Source: Sulfurovum sp. FS08-3 (GTDB lineage Bacteria > Campylobacterota > Campylobacteria > Campylobacterales > Sulfurovaceae). From it: a stretch of DNA of 50,219 nucleotides. Within the stretch, counting starts at the first letter, position 1, and each line of letters begins with the position of its first letter. The notes below the pieces were generated by a model that was given only the letters and a program-made list of their open reading frames with translations, made no database searches and had not been told where the DNA came from. Below, one piece after another: positions 36,182-50,213 of this stretch. Both the position numbers and the translations under genes were made by a program. The DNA lies in NCBI GenBank assembly GCA_000830175.1, contig JQIS01000003.1, forward strand, positions 1 to 50,219, read 5' to 3'.

Positions 36182-36204
36182 TAATAATTGAAGTTATGCA
36201 CTTT
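36182..36204 (+). repeat. 23-bp direct repeat, copy 1
   Basis: The 23 bases starting taataattgaagttatg recur without mismatch at 36349-36371, 167 bases further on. A REP pair lies between them. Confidence 0.8.
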
Positions 36205-36206
36205 TA

Positions 36207-36295
36207 TCGGAAGTGGGACTTTAGTCCCACAAAAGCCAAGGTTTGGTTGTCGTTACTATCGAAGCTAATAAGTGGGACTGAAGTCCCACCTCCGA
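36207..36295. repeat. REP-pair (BIME-like) palindromic element
   Basis: Left: TCGGAA then stem GTGGGAC (36213-36219), loop TTTA, stem GTCCCAC (36224-36230). Right, on the opposite strand: TCGGAG then the same stem (36272-36289) with loop TTCA. The two REP units face each other as in a BIME. The architecture (7-bp stem and TTTA-type loop) is the same as at 6136 and 42473. Confidence 0.75.
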
Positions 36296-36348
36296 AATGG
36301 CATTGCATTTGCATATTTTACAAATAGAATACAGGTGCGTAAGGTCAG

Positions 36349-36371
36349 TAATAATTGAAGTTATGCACTTT
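36349..36371 (+). repeat. 23-bp direct repeat, copy 2
   Basis: Identical to 36182-36204. The 407-base gap between the flippase-like gene and argF holds these repeats, the REP pair and two further palindromes, but no gene. Confidence 0.8.
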
Positions 36372-42311: not shown

Positions 42312-42378
42312 AAAACTCACCAAAAACGATGGCTTTGGTCTCGTCCAATAGTGTAGCCAAAGCACCGCTTCCAAGTTT
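42312..42378 (-). repeat. Imperfect ~67-bp repeat with a REP unit, copy 1
   Basis: The same segment recurs imperfectly at 49492-49559 (identical at both ends: aaaactcac and caaagcaccgcttccaag, different in the middle). On the minus strand it begins AAACTTGGAAGCGG and continues into an imperfect hairpin with a TTTG loop. This is close to the start of the 60-bp repeat (AAACTTCGGAAGCGG), so it is a degenerate REP unit in the opposite orientation. Confidence 0.65.
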
Positions 42379-42451
42379 TTAATGCGATAATGTTTTAAGT
42401 GCTTAAGGTTTAGTTAATATGAACTATCAATCGTTCCATCTCTCTGAGAGT

Positions 42452-42511
42452 GTGAAATAACATGGGAAAACTTCGGAAGCGGGACTTTAGTCCCGCCAAA
42501 AAAGTCTAAAA
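42452..42511 (+). repeat. 60-bp perfect repeat with REP hairpin, copy 1
   Basis: It is identical over 60 bases to 50154-50213. It contains TCGGAA, stem GCGGGAC (42479-42485), loop TTTA and stem GTCCCGC (42490-42496). Its right edge (42511) falls exactly where the homologous part of oadB ends, and it provides the oadB stop codon (42506-42508). Confidence 0.85.
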
Positions 42512-43444
42512 CTCTTTGGCAAAATTTCCCAACGCAAAAGCACCCATCAAAGGAGCAGCATCGGGCAAAAAGAGAGCGGTCATTATCACAACTACGATAG
42601 GGAAAAAGAGCTTCTCTAGTCGGTGTACTTTACGCGTTGTTTTCATGACAATTCTACGCTCTTCTACGGTAGTTAAAGCTTTCATAATAGGGGGTTGGAT
42701 AACGGGTACCAACGCCATATAGGAGTAAGCTGCTACCGCAATCGCACCCAATAGTTCAGGAGCAAGAGCTGAAGCAATAAAGATAGAGGTTGGTCCATCT
42801 GCTCCTCCAATGATACTAATAGCCGAACACTGTTTGAGGGTGAAATCAAAAATTCCCGTATATTCTGTGAGCATTGCAGCACCTACGAGAGAACCAAAGA
42901 TACCAAATTGTGCCGCACCCCCCAATAGAGCGGTTTTGGGGTTGGAGAGAAGCGGAGCAAAATCGGTCATAGCTCCTACTCCCATAAAGATAACCAATGG
43001 GAAAAACTCATTGGCAATACCCATATTGTAGATAATCCCCAACATTCCATGATCCCCAGTCATATTGGCAATGGGAATATTGGCCAAAAGCCCTCCAAAA
43101 GCGATAGGTAAAAGCAAAAGCGGTTCAAATTGTTTGGCGATAGCTAGATAAAAGAGCAAAAAGACAACCCCAAACATAATAATGCGTCCAAGACCTTGTG
43201 CAAAGTGGCTCATCTCTTTGCCATCGCTTGTTTTGACCCCATCTTTGGGTGAGATGAGAGCTTTAAGTCCTGTAGTATGATAAAAAGAGACAAGCATTTG
43301 AGGTATTGTTTTGGATACATATACCTCTTCTTCTACTTTGGTGTCCGATGGAGTAGCATGATTATCTGTGTTGGAGGCGTAAATAGAACCTGTCGTCATC
43401 GCCAAGATAAAGAGCCAAGATAGTATCAATCGTTTGAGTCTCAT
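42506..43444 (-). CDS. oadB: Oxaloacetate decarboxylase beta subunit, C-terminally truncated
   Basis: A 312-residue membrane protein of the Na+-translocating decarboxylase beta family. A signal-like N-terminus and periplasmic linker (1-85) precede helices starting at [14 protein letters not shown]. The central motif [10 protein letters not shown] (Asp216, the conserved sodium-site Asp) and the segment [15 protein letters not shown] are intact. Family members continue about 120 residues beyond the LMG..GN.(K/R)ES segment, with further helices and conserved Ser/Arg of the channel. Here the protein stops at GNFAKEF. The last gene-specific codon is GAG at 42512; the next two codons come from the 60-bp repeat. 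It is probably a pseudogene or non-functional pump unless rescued elsewhere. It follows oadA by 2 bases. Confidence 0.8.
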
Positions 43445-47244: not shown

Positions 47245-49482
47245 GTGGAGAGTTATCAAATAGATATTCAAGGCACGGTTCAAGGGGTGGGGTTTCGTCC
47301 TTTTGTCTATGCATTGGCGATGCGTTTTGGCGTTTATGGAGAGGTTTGGAATGACTCTAGGGGGGTAAGCATTAGGCTTAATGCCACGATGGAGCTATTG
47401 AAAGATTTTATAGCTCAAATAGAGTCTCAAAAGCCTCCACTAGCTTCTATTGATGCTATTAATTTTTATACTATCGAGCCTCAAAACTATGCGAAGTTTT
47501 CTATTATCCAAAGCCAAATGCAAAACGATACCTTTGCCCTTATGCCCCCTGATGTTTCGATTTGCGATGCGTGTGAAGCGGAGCTTTTTGAGCCTTCCAA
47601 TCGTCGCTATGGCTATCCTTTTATTACCTGTACTCATTGCGGTGTACGCTACACGATTATCCAACAACTCCCCTACGATAGAGCCAATACCTCCATGGGG
47701 GCTTTTGCAATGTGTGCAAAGTGCCACGAGGAGTACACCAATCCTCTCAATCGTCGCTACCATGCCCAACCTATTGGGTGCTTTGATTGCGGGCCAACGT
47801 TGAAATTAAGAGACAAAAGTGAAACCTTAAGCCTTAGTCAAAGCCAAATTATTGATAGAGTAGTGCAAATGATTCAAGAGGGAAAAATTGTAGCCATTAA
47901 GGGAGTAGGGGGGTATCATTTGGTTTGCGATGCCTCCAATGATGAAGCGGTACAAACCCTGCGTAAACGTAAAAATCGCCCCCACAAACCTTTTGCTATT
48001 ATGGTCAAAGATAGCGATATGGCAAAACAACTTGCACCTATTTCATCCAAAGAAGAAGAACTGCTTTTATCTAAAGAATGCCCTATTGTGTTGCTTAACA
48101 AACGTAACACTCAGCACTTAGCACTTAGCACTCTCATTGCTCCCGATGTCGATACGATAGGGATATTTCTCCCCTATACCCCTTTGCATCTGCTTTTGCT
48201 CAAAGCCCTCAATCGTCCCATCGTAGCCACCAGTGCCAATGTGAGCGATGAGCCACTCGCACGCACCCTTGAAGAGATAATGAGACTTGTTCATGTGTGG
48301 GATTACTGCCTCGACCACGATAGAGAGATTGTGAATGGTTGCGATGATAGTGTGGTCACTGTTGTTGAAGATAGCGTTTTGTTTGTGCGTCGTGCTAGAG
48401 GCTATGCACCCCAAGCGATTACGTTGCCCTTTAGGCTTAGTCAAAAGGTTTTGGCATTGGGAGCTAATCAAAAATCAACCATTGCCATCGCCTTTGGAAA
48501 CAAAGCAATCCTTTCGCCTCATATAGGGGATTTGCATACGATTGATTCTATCGCCTACTACCGCCAACACATCGATCATTTACGCCAAATCTATAATTTT
48601 CAAGAGGATATAGTCGTACACGACAAACACCTCCACTACGAATCAACCAAGTACGCCAATCAATTAAAAATGAAAAATGAAAAATTAAAAGTGCTGGAGG
48701 TGCAACACCATGTCGCCCATATTCAAGCGGTGCGTTTGGAACACGGCATAAGAGGCAAAGTGTTGGGTATTGCCTTTGATGGTACGGGATACGGGGATGA
48801 TGGCAATATGTGGGGAGGGGAGTTTATCGTTTGTGATGATAATAGTTATGAAAGGGTCGCTCATTTGGACTATTTTAAGCTCTTAGGAGGCGAAAAGGCG
48901 ATCAAAGAACCACGTAGGGTAGCCCTTTCACTGCTCTTTGAGTGCTATGGGGCAAAGGTGCTTGATATGGATAATCCAACCACTCGTGCCTTTTTCCCCC
49001 AAGAACTACGACTCTACTACCGTATGTGGTACAAGGGTTTAAATGCTCCACTTACCTCCTCTATCGGTCGTCTCTTTGATGGAGTAGCCTCTCTAAGCGG
49101 TATCGTTCAAACCCTTAGTTATGAGGGGCAAAGCGGAGCGATGATGGAGTGCTATTATGACCCCGCTATTCAATCGTGCTATTTGTGGAATCTTAATGAT
49201 GGGAAAATCGATATCAAGCCAATGATAAAGATGATGCTCACCCAATCCGATGCTAGGGTGATGATTTCAAAATTTTTTAATACACTGGTGAATATTGTGG
49301 AACAAATTGCTATGTGCTATCCCTACCCTGTCGTTTTGGGGGGTGGAGTCTTTCACAATAGGGTTTTGGTAGGGTTGCTTTTGCACAAAATGGGCAAGAG
49401 AGTCTCTCTTCCCCAAAAACTACCCCCCAACGACGGAGCTATTGCACTAGGACAAATCATGCAAGGATATAGGGCAATTTAA
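47245..49482 (+). CDS. hypF: Carbamoyltransferase HypF, [NiFe]-hydrogenase maturation
   Basis: A 745-residue protein. An N-terminal acylphosphatase domain (TVQGVGFRPFVYAL) precedes four CxxC pairs (C107/110, 129/132, 157/160, 179/182) forming two zinc fingers. A YrdC-like domain follows (GVGGYHLVCDA; RPHKPFAIMV), then a Kae1-like domain with VQHHVAHIQAV and FDGTGYGDDGNMWGGEF. HypF converts carbamoyl phosphate to a thiocarboxamide on HypE, the source of the cyanide ligands of [NiFe] hydrogenases. The start is GTG after AAGGAGAG. No other hyp or hydrogenase gene is in the window. Residues 473-482 derive from an unusual A-rich stretch (see findings). Confidence 0.93.
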   Translation: MESYQIDIQGTVQGVGFRPFVYALAMRFGVYGEVWNDSRGVSIRLNATMELLKDFIAQIESQKPPLASIDAINFYTIEPQNYAKFSIIQSQMQNDTFALMPPDVSICDACEAELFEPSNRRYGYPFITCTHCGVRYTIIQQLPYDRANTSMGAFAMCAKCHEEYTNPLNRRYHAQPIGCFDCGPTLKLRDKSETLSLSQSQIIDRVVQMIQEGKIVAIKGVGGYHLVCDASNDEAVQTLRKRKNRPHKPFAIMVKDSDMAKQLAPISSKEEELLLSKECPIVLLNKRNTQHLALSTLIAPDVDTIGIFLPYTPLHLLLLKALNRPIVATSANVSDEPLARTLEEIMRLVHVWDYCLDHDREIVNGCDDSVVTVVEDSVLFVRRARGYAPQAITLPFRLSQKVLALGANQKSTIAIAFGNKAILSPHIGDLHTIDSIAYYRQHIDHLRQIYNFQEDIVVHDKHLHYESTKYANQLKMKNEKLKVLEVQHHVAHIQAVRLEHGIRGKVLGIAFDGTGYGDDGNMWGGEFIVCDDNSYERVAHLDYFKLLGGEKAIKEPRRVALSLLFECYGAKVLDMDNPTTRAFFPQELRLYYRMWYKGLNAPLTSSIGRLFDGVASLSGIVQTLSYEGQSGAMMECYYDPAIQSCYLWNLNDGKIDIKPMIKMMLTQSDARVMISKFFNTLVNIVEQIAMCYPYPVVLGGGVFHNRVLVGLLLHKMGKRVSLPQKLPPNDGAIALGQIMQGYRAI

Positions 49483-49491
49483 AAGGCTTTC

Positions 49492-49559
49492 AAAACTCAC
49501 TAGAAACGATGGCTTTAGCCTCATCTAAGGGCGGCAACCAAAGCACCGCTTCCAAGTTT
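49492..49559 (-). repeat. Imperfect ~68-bp repeat with a REP unit, copy 2
   Basis: Second copy of the 42312-42378 element, 10 bases after the hypF stop. On the minus strand GGAA precedes an imperfect hairpin (GCGGTGC, loop TTTG, then GCCGC). A second small hairpin with a TTTA loop lies at the other end (gatggcTTTAgcc...catc). Confidence 0.65.
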
Positions 49560-49591: not shown

Positions 49592-50152
49592 ATGAAACGA
49601 AGTTTTACAATAGCCCTAGCGGTAATGGTTTGGGGAGTGGTGGTTTGGGGCAATAGTGTCGATAAGCTAGTCGAGGGGGCTAAGTGGCAAGTGGGTAAGA
49701 CGCTTACTTATAATCCCGAGTATGTCAAACTCTCCTATCCTATGGGCGACATCAATGTAACCAAAGGGGTTTGTACCGATGTGGTAGTTCGAGCCATGCG
49801 AAAGCTTAATATTGATTTGCAACGTGAGATATACCTTGACAAAAAAGCCAACCCCAAACGCTACCGTGGACTATACTCTACCAATCGATTGGACCCCAAT
49901 ATCGACCACCGACGAGTCAAAAACATTCAAGCCTATTTTGCTGCCAAAGGTTATCGTGTCAAAGATGGCTTTAGGGCGGGAGATATTGTGGTATGGAAGC
50001 TTCCTTTTAATGCACTTGACCATATTGGTATCTGTTCACATCGTACCAACGCCCAAGGAGAGCCGTTTGTAATCCACAATATCGGAATGGGAGCAAGGGA
50101 AGAGGATGTTTTGAGAGAGTATAAGATAGTGGATCACTTTAGGCTTCAATGA
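49592..50152 (+). CDS. DUF1287-family exported protein
   Basis: A 186-residue protein with a signal peptide (MKRSFTIALAVMVWGVVVWGNS) and the DUF1287 signature set: YPMGDINVTKGVCTDVVVRA (with a conserved Cys), NIDHRRVKNIQAYFAAKGY and FRAGDIVVWKL, followed by DHIGICSH and VIHNIG. The Cys and two His suggest an NlpC/P60-like papain-fold hydrolase of the cell envelope, though the family is uncharacterised. AAAGGAG lies eight bases before the ATG. It is bracketed by an inverted REP repeat on its left and the 60-bp REP repeat on its right, which begins two bases after its stop. Confidence 0.8.
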   Translation: MKRSFTIALAVMVWGVVVWGNSVDKLVEGAKWQVGKTLTYNPEYVKLSYPMGDINVTKGVCTDVVVRAMRKLNIDLQREIYLDKKANPKRYRGLYSTNRLDPNIDHRRVKNIQAYFAAKGYRVKDGFRAGDIVVWKLPFNALDHIGICSHRTNAQGEPFVIHNIGMGAREEDVLREYKIVDHFRLQ

Positions 50153-50153
50153 G

Positions 50154-50213
50154 GTGAAATAACATGGGAAAACTTCGGAAGCGGGACTTTAGTCCCGCCA
50201 AAAAAGTCTAAAA
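50154..50213 (+). repeat. 60-bp perfect repeat with REP hairpin, copy 2
   Basis: Identical to 42452-42511. TCGGAA (50175-50180) precedes stem GCGGGAC, loop TTTA and stem GTCCCGC (50192-50198). The window ends six bases after the repeat. Confidence 0.85.

Follow-up and report, generated by a model that had tools for sequence, protein, structure and literature searches.

We interpret the 60 bases that stand at two places in the window as belonging to a short mosaic repeat, non-coding and of the REP, REPIN or BIME type, of which they make up the left half; to this reading we give a probability of roughly 0.82. The window, the whole stretch of DNA analyzed here, is the entire contig C55 (G000:C55:1-50219), 50219 bases of a 2.54 Mb genome of Sulfurovum sp. 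FS08-3 in 68 contigs. The full element is 195 bp long and contains no gene; a GGAAG-tagged REP palindrome and its inverted partner are enclosed by ends, GAGAGTGTGAAATAA, that are common to other inserts. This composite REPIN/BIME-like form is undescribed but unsurprising, and the repeat is of an ordinary bacterial kind. No description of it was recognized in the accessible portions of the open literature searched.

A multicopy repeat closes the contig

The bases at 42452-42511 and 50154-50213 are identical at 60 of 60 positions, with a spacing of 7702 in a repeat search of the window, and the bases that flank them differ. An exact match of 60 bases within 50 kb is, by our estimate, far beyond chance expectation. 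A preliminary description made from the window had named a genome with only these two copies as part of its refuting case; instead, the genome holds six near-identical copies of the 60-mer, four at 100% and two at 98%, and three of the six lie at contig ends. A further 23 weaker matches (E up to 1e-3) fall mainly over the hairpin of the 60-mer. In a genome of the same genus (G003) there are two copies, 97% and 91% alike to the copy in the window over 66 bases. The same description had called the repeat non-coding, which is right for most of its length but not for 42506-42511, the end of a minus-strand ORF (42506-43444) whose stop codon lies inside the repeat; the second copy begins one base past the stop codon of the ORF at 49592-50152. 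Nor are the 7.7 kb between the copies wholly unique, as had been stated, since the hairpin GGAAGCGGTGCTTTGG at 49538-49553 recurs at 42357-42372.

The contig stops six bases past the second copy, at its length of 50219, and the suggestion that it ends in a multicopy repeat was borne out. In a comparison of 173 overlapping stretches of the genome, four contig ends (C55 end, C56 end, C57 start and C50 end) lie in the element, and the terminal 66 bases of each match elsewhere exactly; the exact terminal matches at other ends were 58 bases at C49 start, 17 at C56 start and none at C55 start. Graph assemblers yield such contig ends at repeats, and contig C55 stops here because of the multicopy repeat. 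The 12 bases GGCTTCAATGAG at 50142-50153, before the contig-end copy, recur at the start of C57 (L079), 24 bases outside the element end, and both may flank one insertion.

Anatomy of the 195-bp element

A complete copy of the element, of which the 60-mer is the left half, lies at C59:244966-245160. With the 195 bp as query, long partial copies were found in the genome at C49, C50, C55 (two), C56 (two), C57 (two) and C59:381034. When twelve copies, including two from G003, are aligned, a spacer is seen to separate a left from a right half. GGAAG and CGGGACTTTAGTCCCG are found in the left half; their partner in the right half, GTAGGACTAAAGTCCTACTTCC, is inverted and slightly different. Folded as single-stranded DNA, the element is predicted to form a single hairpin of -41.4 kcal/mol (z -7.56), and none of 200 shuffles was equally stable; the 60-mer alone, folded as RNA, goes only modestly beyond its shuffles (z -1.96; 7 of 200).

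The features of the window are collected in Table 1. On its left side the contig-end copy is without the outer arm and the first bases of the end motif. The solitary half-element near 42446 runs in the order end motif, spacer, REP hairpin and a tail that closes with GTCTAAAA. This closing motif is the stop point shared by two separate left-half copies, at window position 42511 and at C59:381035. The dinucleotide CT, given as the RAYT cleavage dinucleotide in the accessible part of PMC8266576, is found a few bases ahead of that common end, and cleavage at CT is not claimed as its cause.

Table 1. Features of the repeat and its surroundings in the window.
Feature	Position	Strand	Basis
Related element of another family (CTGANNTTACGCAC-like ends, left end degenerate)	about 36188..36348	+	inverted GGAAG REPs at 36209 (plus) and 36293 (minus)
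Variant GGAAG hairpin GGAAGCGGTGCTTTGG, between fusA and the half-element	42357..42372	-	also at 49538..49553
Degenerate outer arm ATCGTTCCATCTC	42430..42442	+	two mismatches to CTCRTTCCACCTC; alone at chance level (19 of 100 shuffles match as well), called by its position beside the end motif
Solitary left half-element, includes the 60-mer 42452-42511	42446..42511	+	100% over 66 bases to element positions 18-83; alignment
End motif GAGAGTGTGAAATAA	42446..42460	+	exact match
GGAAG-tagged REP hairpin GGAAGCGGGACTTTAGTCCCGC	42475..42496	+	position
oadB (oxaloacetate decarboxylase beta subunit), truncated where the repeat lies	42506..43444	-	OAD_beta profile 2-217 of 349
Variant GGAAG hairpin GGAAGCGGTGCTTTGG, behind hypF at the end of synteny with relatives	49538..49553	-	also at 42357..42372
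DUF1287 gene, immediately ahead of the contig-end copy	49592..50152	+	PF06940, 182 bits
Left half of the 195-bp element, truncated by the contig end	50154..50219	+	100% over 66 bases to element positions 24-89 (C59)
GGAAG-tagged REP hairpin GGAAGCGGGACTTTAGTCCCGC	50177..50198	+	position and predicted hairpin

Dispersal of the REP core

The REP core GGGACTTTAGTCCC, at one mismatch or fewer, occurs at 54 places in the genome, 27 on each strand and 36 of them exact, and a reversed-pattern control gave none. By hand count these 54 places include 14 inverted core pairs, 59-63 bp apart, most of them members of a different element family, one bounded by CTGANNTTACGCAC-like ends. With the 14 second arms of the pairs excluded, 36 of 40 core sites fall outside ORFs by a simple ORF rule. 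Among the remaining four, one lies in an ORF that we take to be plsX, and this match is taken for chance; the other three are in frame as GSGTLVP or GSGTLVS. Two are found in one 701-aa protein with cadherin-like domains, both as GSGTLVP (C62:238388 and 238496), and the third, as GSGTLVS, in an Eco57I-type methylase (C41:23648). In-frame REPs are known from Rickettsia, according to the part of PMC3733652 drawn on here.

The tag is GGAAG in most copies of this genome, and GGAGTA stands before the same core in locus L318. As the tag is not GTAG or CGTC, the element is not filed as a GTAG or CGTC REP. Across several phyla, at least 103 stretches of genomic contigs contain the pattern GGAAGYGGGACTTTAGTCCCRC, including, among the matches listed, records of Sulfurimonas, Sulfurovum, Sulfuricurvum, Gammaproteobacteria, Nitrosomonas, Desulfobacteraceae, Aminicenantes, Polarisedimenticolaceae and others. 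The occurrence of the same REP in several phyla bears on the spread of REP-RAYT pairs among distant bacteria.

The CTGANNTTACGCAC-type ends form a large family in their own right, with 120 sites in the genome at one mismatch or fewer (controls 7); among the places listed, pairs of such ends are often about 160 or 230 bp apart. In the window, the direct repeat TTGAAGTTATGCAC stands on both sides of the body of the family-A element, at 36188-36201 and 36355-36368.

The REP core and RAYT genes

One Y1-type protein is encoded in the genome (C58:1365-1727), and NCBIfam assigns it to the REP-associated tyrosine transposases (149 bits against a cut-off of 80). At its locus the REP core is absent and other palindromes surround the gene. 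A 5S rRNA gene (L030:72-187) stands at the start of the contig that bears this sole RAYT.

Three RAYT-like ORFs in the listed stretches with GGAAGYGGGACTTTAGTCCCRC contain several GGAAG-type palindromes in frame (L147:4496-5278, minus strand; L194:3577-4359, plus strand; L128:6325-7059, minus strand), as if REPs had settled in their own transposase gene. The first two are from Sulfuricurvum STA_65 and encode identical proteins, and L128 is from a relative. L147 and L128 match Y1_Tnp at 50 and 40 bits (cut-off 23), and L147 scores 64.5 bits with the REP transposase model, below the 80-bit cut-off. The L147 protein as query has matches in 33 of 60 genomes, five of them with E of 5e-43 or better, and this RAYT subgroup has no match in the Sulfurovum sp. 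FS08-3 genome at E up to 1e-3.

At two mismatches or fewer, the core was found in five of 50 Y1 loci (46 distinct), namely L318 (8 times), L320 (5), L319 (3), L237 (2) and L251 (2). It is absent from the other 45, including L321 and L322, and the reversed control gave 0 in all 50. The REPs surround RAYT homologues in L318, L319 and L320 but not in L321 and L322, which are both among the five closest homologues. Of the five core-bearing loci, two hold RAYTs of other types. Thus, the link between this REP and RAYTs is seen in some members of the subgroup, and also outside it.

Shared ends and the mode of spread

The end pattern GAGNGTGTGAAATAA, at one mismatch or fewer, occurs at 39 places in the genome (control 1). 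In the loci examined, pairs of ends enclose at least three types of interior: the REP doublet, a TTCGACTAGGCTCAGG-type palindrome (element of about 110 bp) and a GGGTGTCAAT-type palindrome (about 139 bp). Complementary arms, usually like CTCGTTCCACC and GGTGGAACGAG, flank the ends on the outside. Because elements with different interiors have these ends in common, it may be the ends that are moved and not the REP. On the 3' side of fusA, G003 carries 113 bp with the same ends and G004 carries nothing, the site lying within the imperfect hairpin CTCGCTCCCAAATAGAGTTTGGAAGCGAG. The insert possibly represents a 110-bp element and a 3-bp duplication; since AGAG is read in the target as well as in the ends, it is ambiguous whether 3-4 bp are duplicated or none. 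In the relatives compared, no empty site was found for either copy of the window. At the 42452 site the relatives differ by rearrangement, and the DUF1287 gene beside the 50154 copy has no DNA match in G001-G004.

The inverted 15-bp ends around differing interiors, and the G003/G004 difference inside the fusA hairpin, are compatible with a classical MITE, that is, the remnant of a DDE insertion sequence whose transposase would read the ends, duplicate 3-4 bp of the target and prefer hairpins, with the REPs as passengers. This is the best of the alternatives, a serious one that we nevertheless hold to be less probable than not, given the ambiguous duplication and because none of the inspected loci showed a transposase gene enclosed by such ends. 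Pfam scans of eight ORFs from L299 (family-A ends, C17), L089 and L279 (both B ends, C4) gave AAA_14, rhodanese, PP2C, EcsC, Crp-type and Hsp20 domains or nothing, and no transposase family among them. By the definition in the accessible part of PMC3733652, bacterial MITEs are alike in size (70-300 bp), in inverted ends of 15-30 bp and in having no coding capacity; unlike them, the present element has REPs inside, an ambiguous duplication and, in the loci inspected, no parent insertion sequence.

As the mover of the mosaic repeat, a RAYT is slightly favored over a DDE transposase. The full element is a pair of half-units in inverted orientation; an outer palindromic arm, GAGAGTGTGAAATAA, a spacer and a GGAAG-tagged REP hairpin make up each of them, and the single strand is predicted to fold into one long hairpin. 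Being without a gene, the element must be moved in trans. Most likely, the REP part owes its spread to a RAYT from the subgroup whose genes lie among these REPs in some relatives, and the composite spread later via its ends, for which no enzyme was found in the loci inspected. Half copies such as that at 42452 would be partial or decayed copies. Copy number, architecture, predicted folding, the REP-RAYT link in some relatives, the lack of a match to that RAYT subgroup in this genome and the contig breaks at the repeat are observations, and from there we infer the enzyme, the single-strand route and the recency. The weakest step is the enzyme: a RAYT may be responsible, or a DDE transposase that acts on the ends, or each of the two at a different time.

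A two-level system is a more speculative and rather doubtful extension. Here GAGAGTGTGAAATAA and the outer palindromic arms would be a container that jumps into the tops of hairpins, e.g., terminators, with exchangeable palindrome doublets as cargo; the same GGAAG REP would ride in a second container with CTGANNTTACGCAC ends, and in related bacteria it would have settled in frame within the coding sequence of its own RAYT. If true, this reading lets one ask how REPs lose their dependence on a RAYT and ride other ends; otherwise, the repeat is an ordinary addition to the catalogue of REPs.

Age of the copies

The identity of the window copies had been attributed to recent movement or gene conversion. 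Movement is plausible but unproven: the 60-mer copies are 98-100% alike, and one pair of relatives, G003 and G004, differs at one locus by presence and absence of an element with these ends. That gene conversion among old copies, and not recent movement, explains the identity is unlikely in our judgment, for the six copies have no common flanks beyond the element, and one relative carries, while another lacks, an element with these ends. What this explanation has on its side is that identity within the genome exceeds identity to G003, and that some elements with GAGAGTGTGAAATAA-type ends sit at the same place in this genome and in relatives (L114/L084 and L118/L085), which makes part of the family old. 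As to transposition or gene conversion, the data plausibly fit either.

The broken oadB gene and the assembly

The product of oadB has 312 aa here compared with 444 aa in the same-genus genomes G003 and G004; 311 conserved residues lie in the window, and the stop codon (42506-42508) lies within the 60-mer. Similarity to G001, G003 and G004 starts exactly at 42511. In G003 and G004, oadB is followed by pckA. In the present genome truD, a PAS gene and pckA (assigned by Pfam) are found at C16:67857-71339, together with about 108 bp of the 3' end of oadB. The 293 bp of oadB that would connect these pieces had no listed match in the genome, with 40 of 119 first-look candidates scored, and a copy of the element is absent from the C16 junction (71339) as printed. 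At the other end of the synteny, similarity to the relatives past hypF stops at 49472-49474, adjoining another GGAAG hairpin. Repeats thus stand at both points of the window where the order differs from that of relatives, and they may have caused these changes.

Over exactly 66 bases the copy at 42446-42511 is identical to C59, and the fusA-oadB join across it therefore depends on how the assembler resolved the repeat. Together with the 66 terminal bases common to four contig ends, this is what an assembly artefact would draw on, whether one window copy is false or the join at 42446-42511 is. Such an artefact is quite improbable as the explanation: oadB is broken at the repeat whichever left flank is correct, and its 3' remnant lies on C16 beside pckA with no listed match for the intervening 293 bp, which a simple misjoin does not explain. 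The mosaic repeat itself accounts for both the contig break and the broken end of oadB, and joins at such repeats need checking.

An ordinary intrinsic terminator at two gene ends is highly improbable, for although a strong predicted hairpin adjoins gene ends at both places, the identity spans 60 bases including parts outside the hairpin, and the core recurs at 54 scattered sites, some paired in inverted orientation, and with common ends; this copy pattern speaks against a terminator as the whole explanation, and an added terminator effect is possible. Among known RNA families, only five tRNAs in the window reached the gathering score. The 195-bp element had no match in phage or plasmid collections (blastn, E up to 1e-3), which thus lend no support to a phage or plasmid origin.

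Relation to described repeats

Several described systems resemble the mosaic repeat in part, as far as the portions of the sources drawn on here extend. REPINs (PMC3116915) also bring two inverted REPs and a spacer into one hairpin, occur as singlets too, are mostly intergenic and are linked to RAYTs. In contrast to REPINs, the doublet here is enclosed by extra ends and palindromic arms, the tag is GGAAG and the cognate RAYT subgroup is unmatched in the genome that carries the element. BIMEs (PMC2817692) are likewise mosaics of REPs in alternating orientation, whereas here there are just two inverted REPs between inverted ends. REPs usually number more than 100 per genome (PMC2817692), so that the 54 core copies found here are fewer than usual.

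Tagged palindromes, dimers and an association with RAYTs are shared with the GTAG and CGTC REPs, REPtrons and TIRtrons of PMC3733652. The present repeat differs from the GTAG and CGTC REPs in its GGAAG tag, in the several interiors that share its ends and in its host group, and one of the families in that source could still be this one. The accessible part of the same paper describes Pseudomonas REP units adjoined to unrelated stem-loops, and REPs within ORFs, and mentions a Sulfurovum that has GTAG and CGTC repeats. A table row in the part of PMC12306157 drawn on here covers Sulfurimonas gotlandica together with other epsilonproteobacteria.
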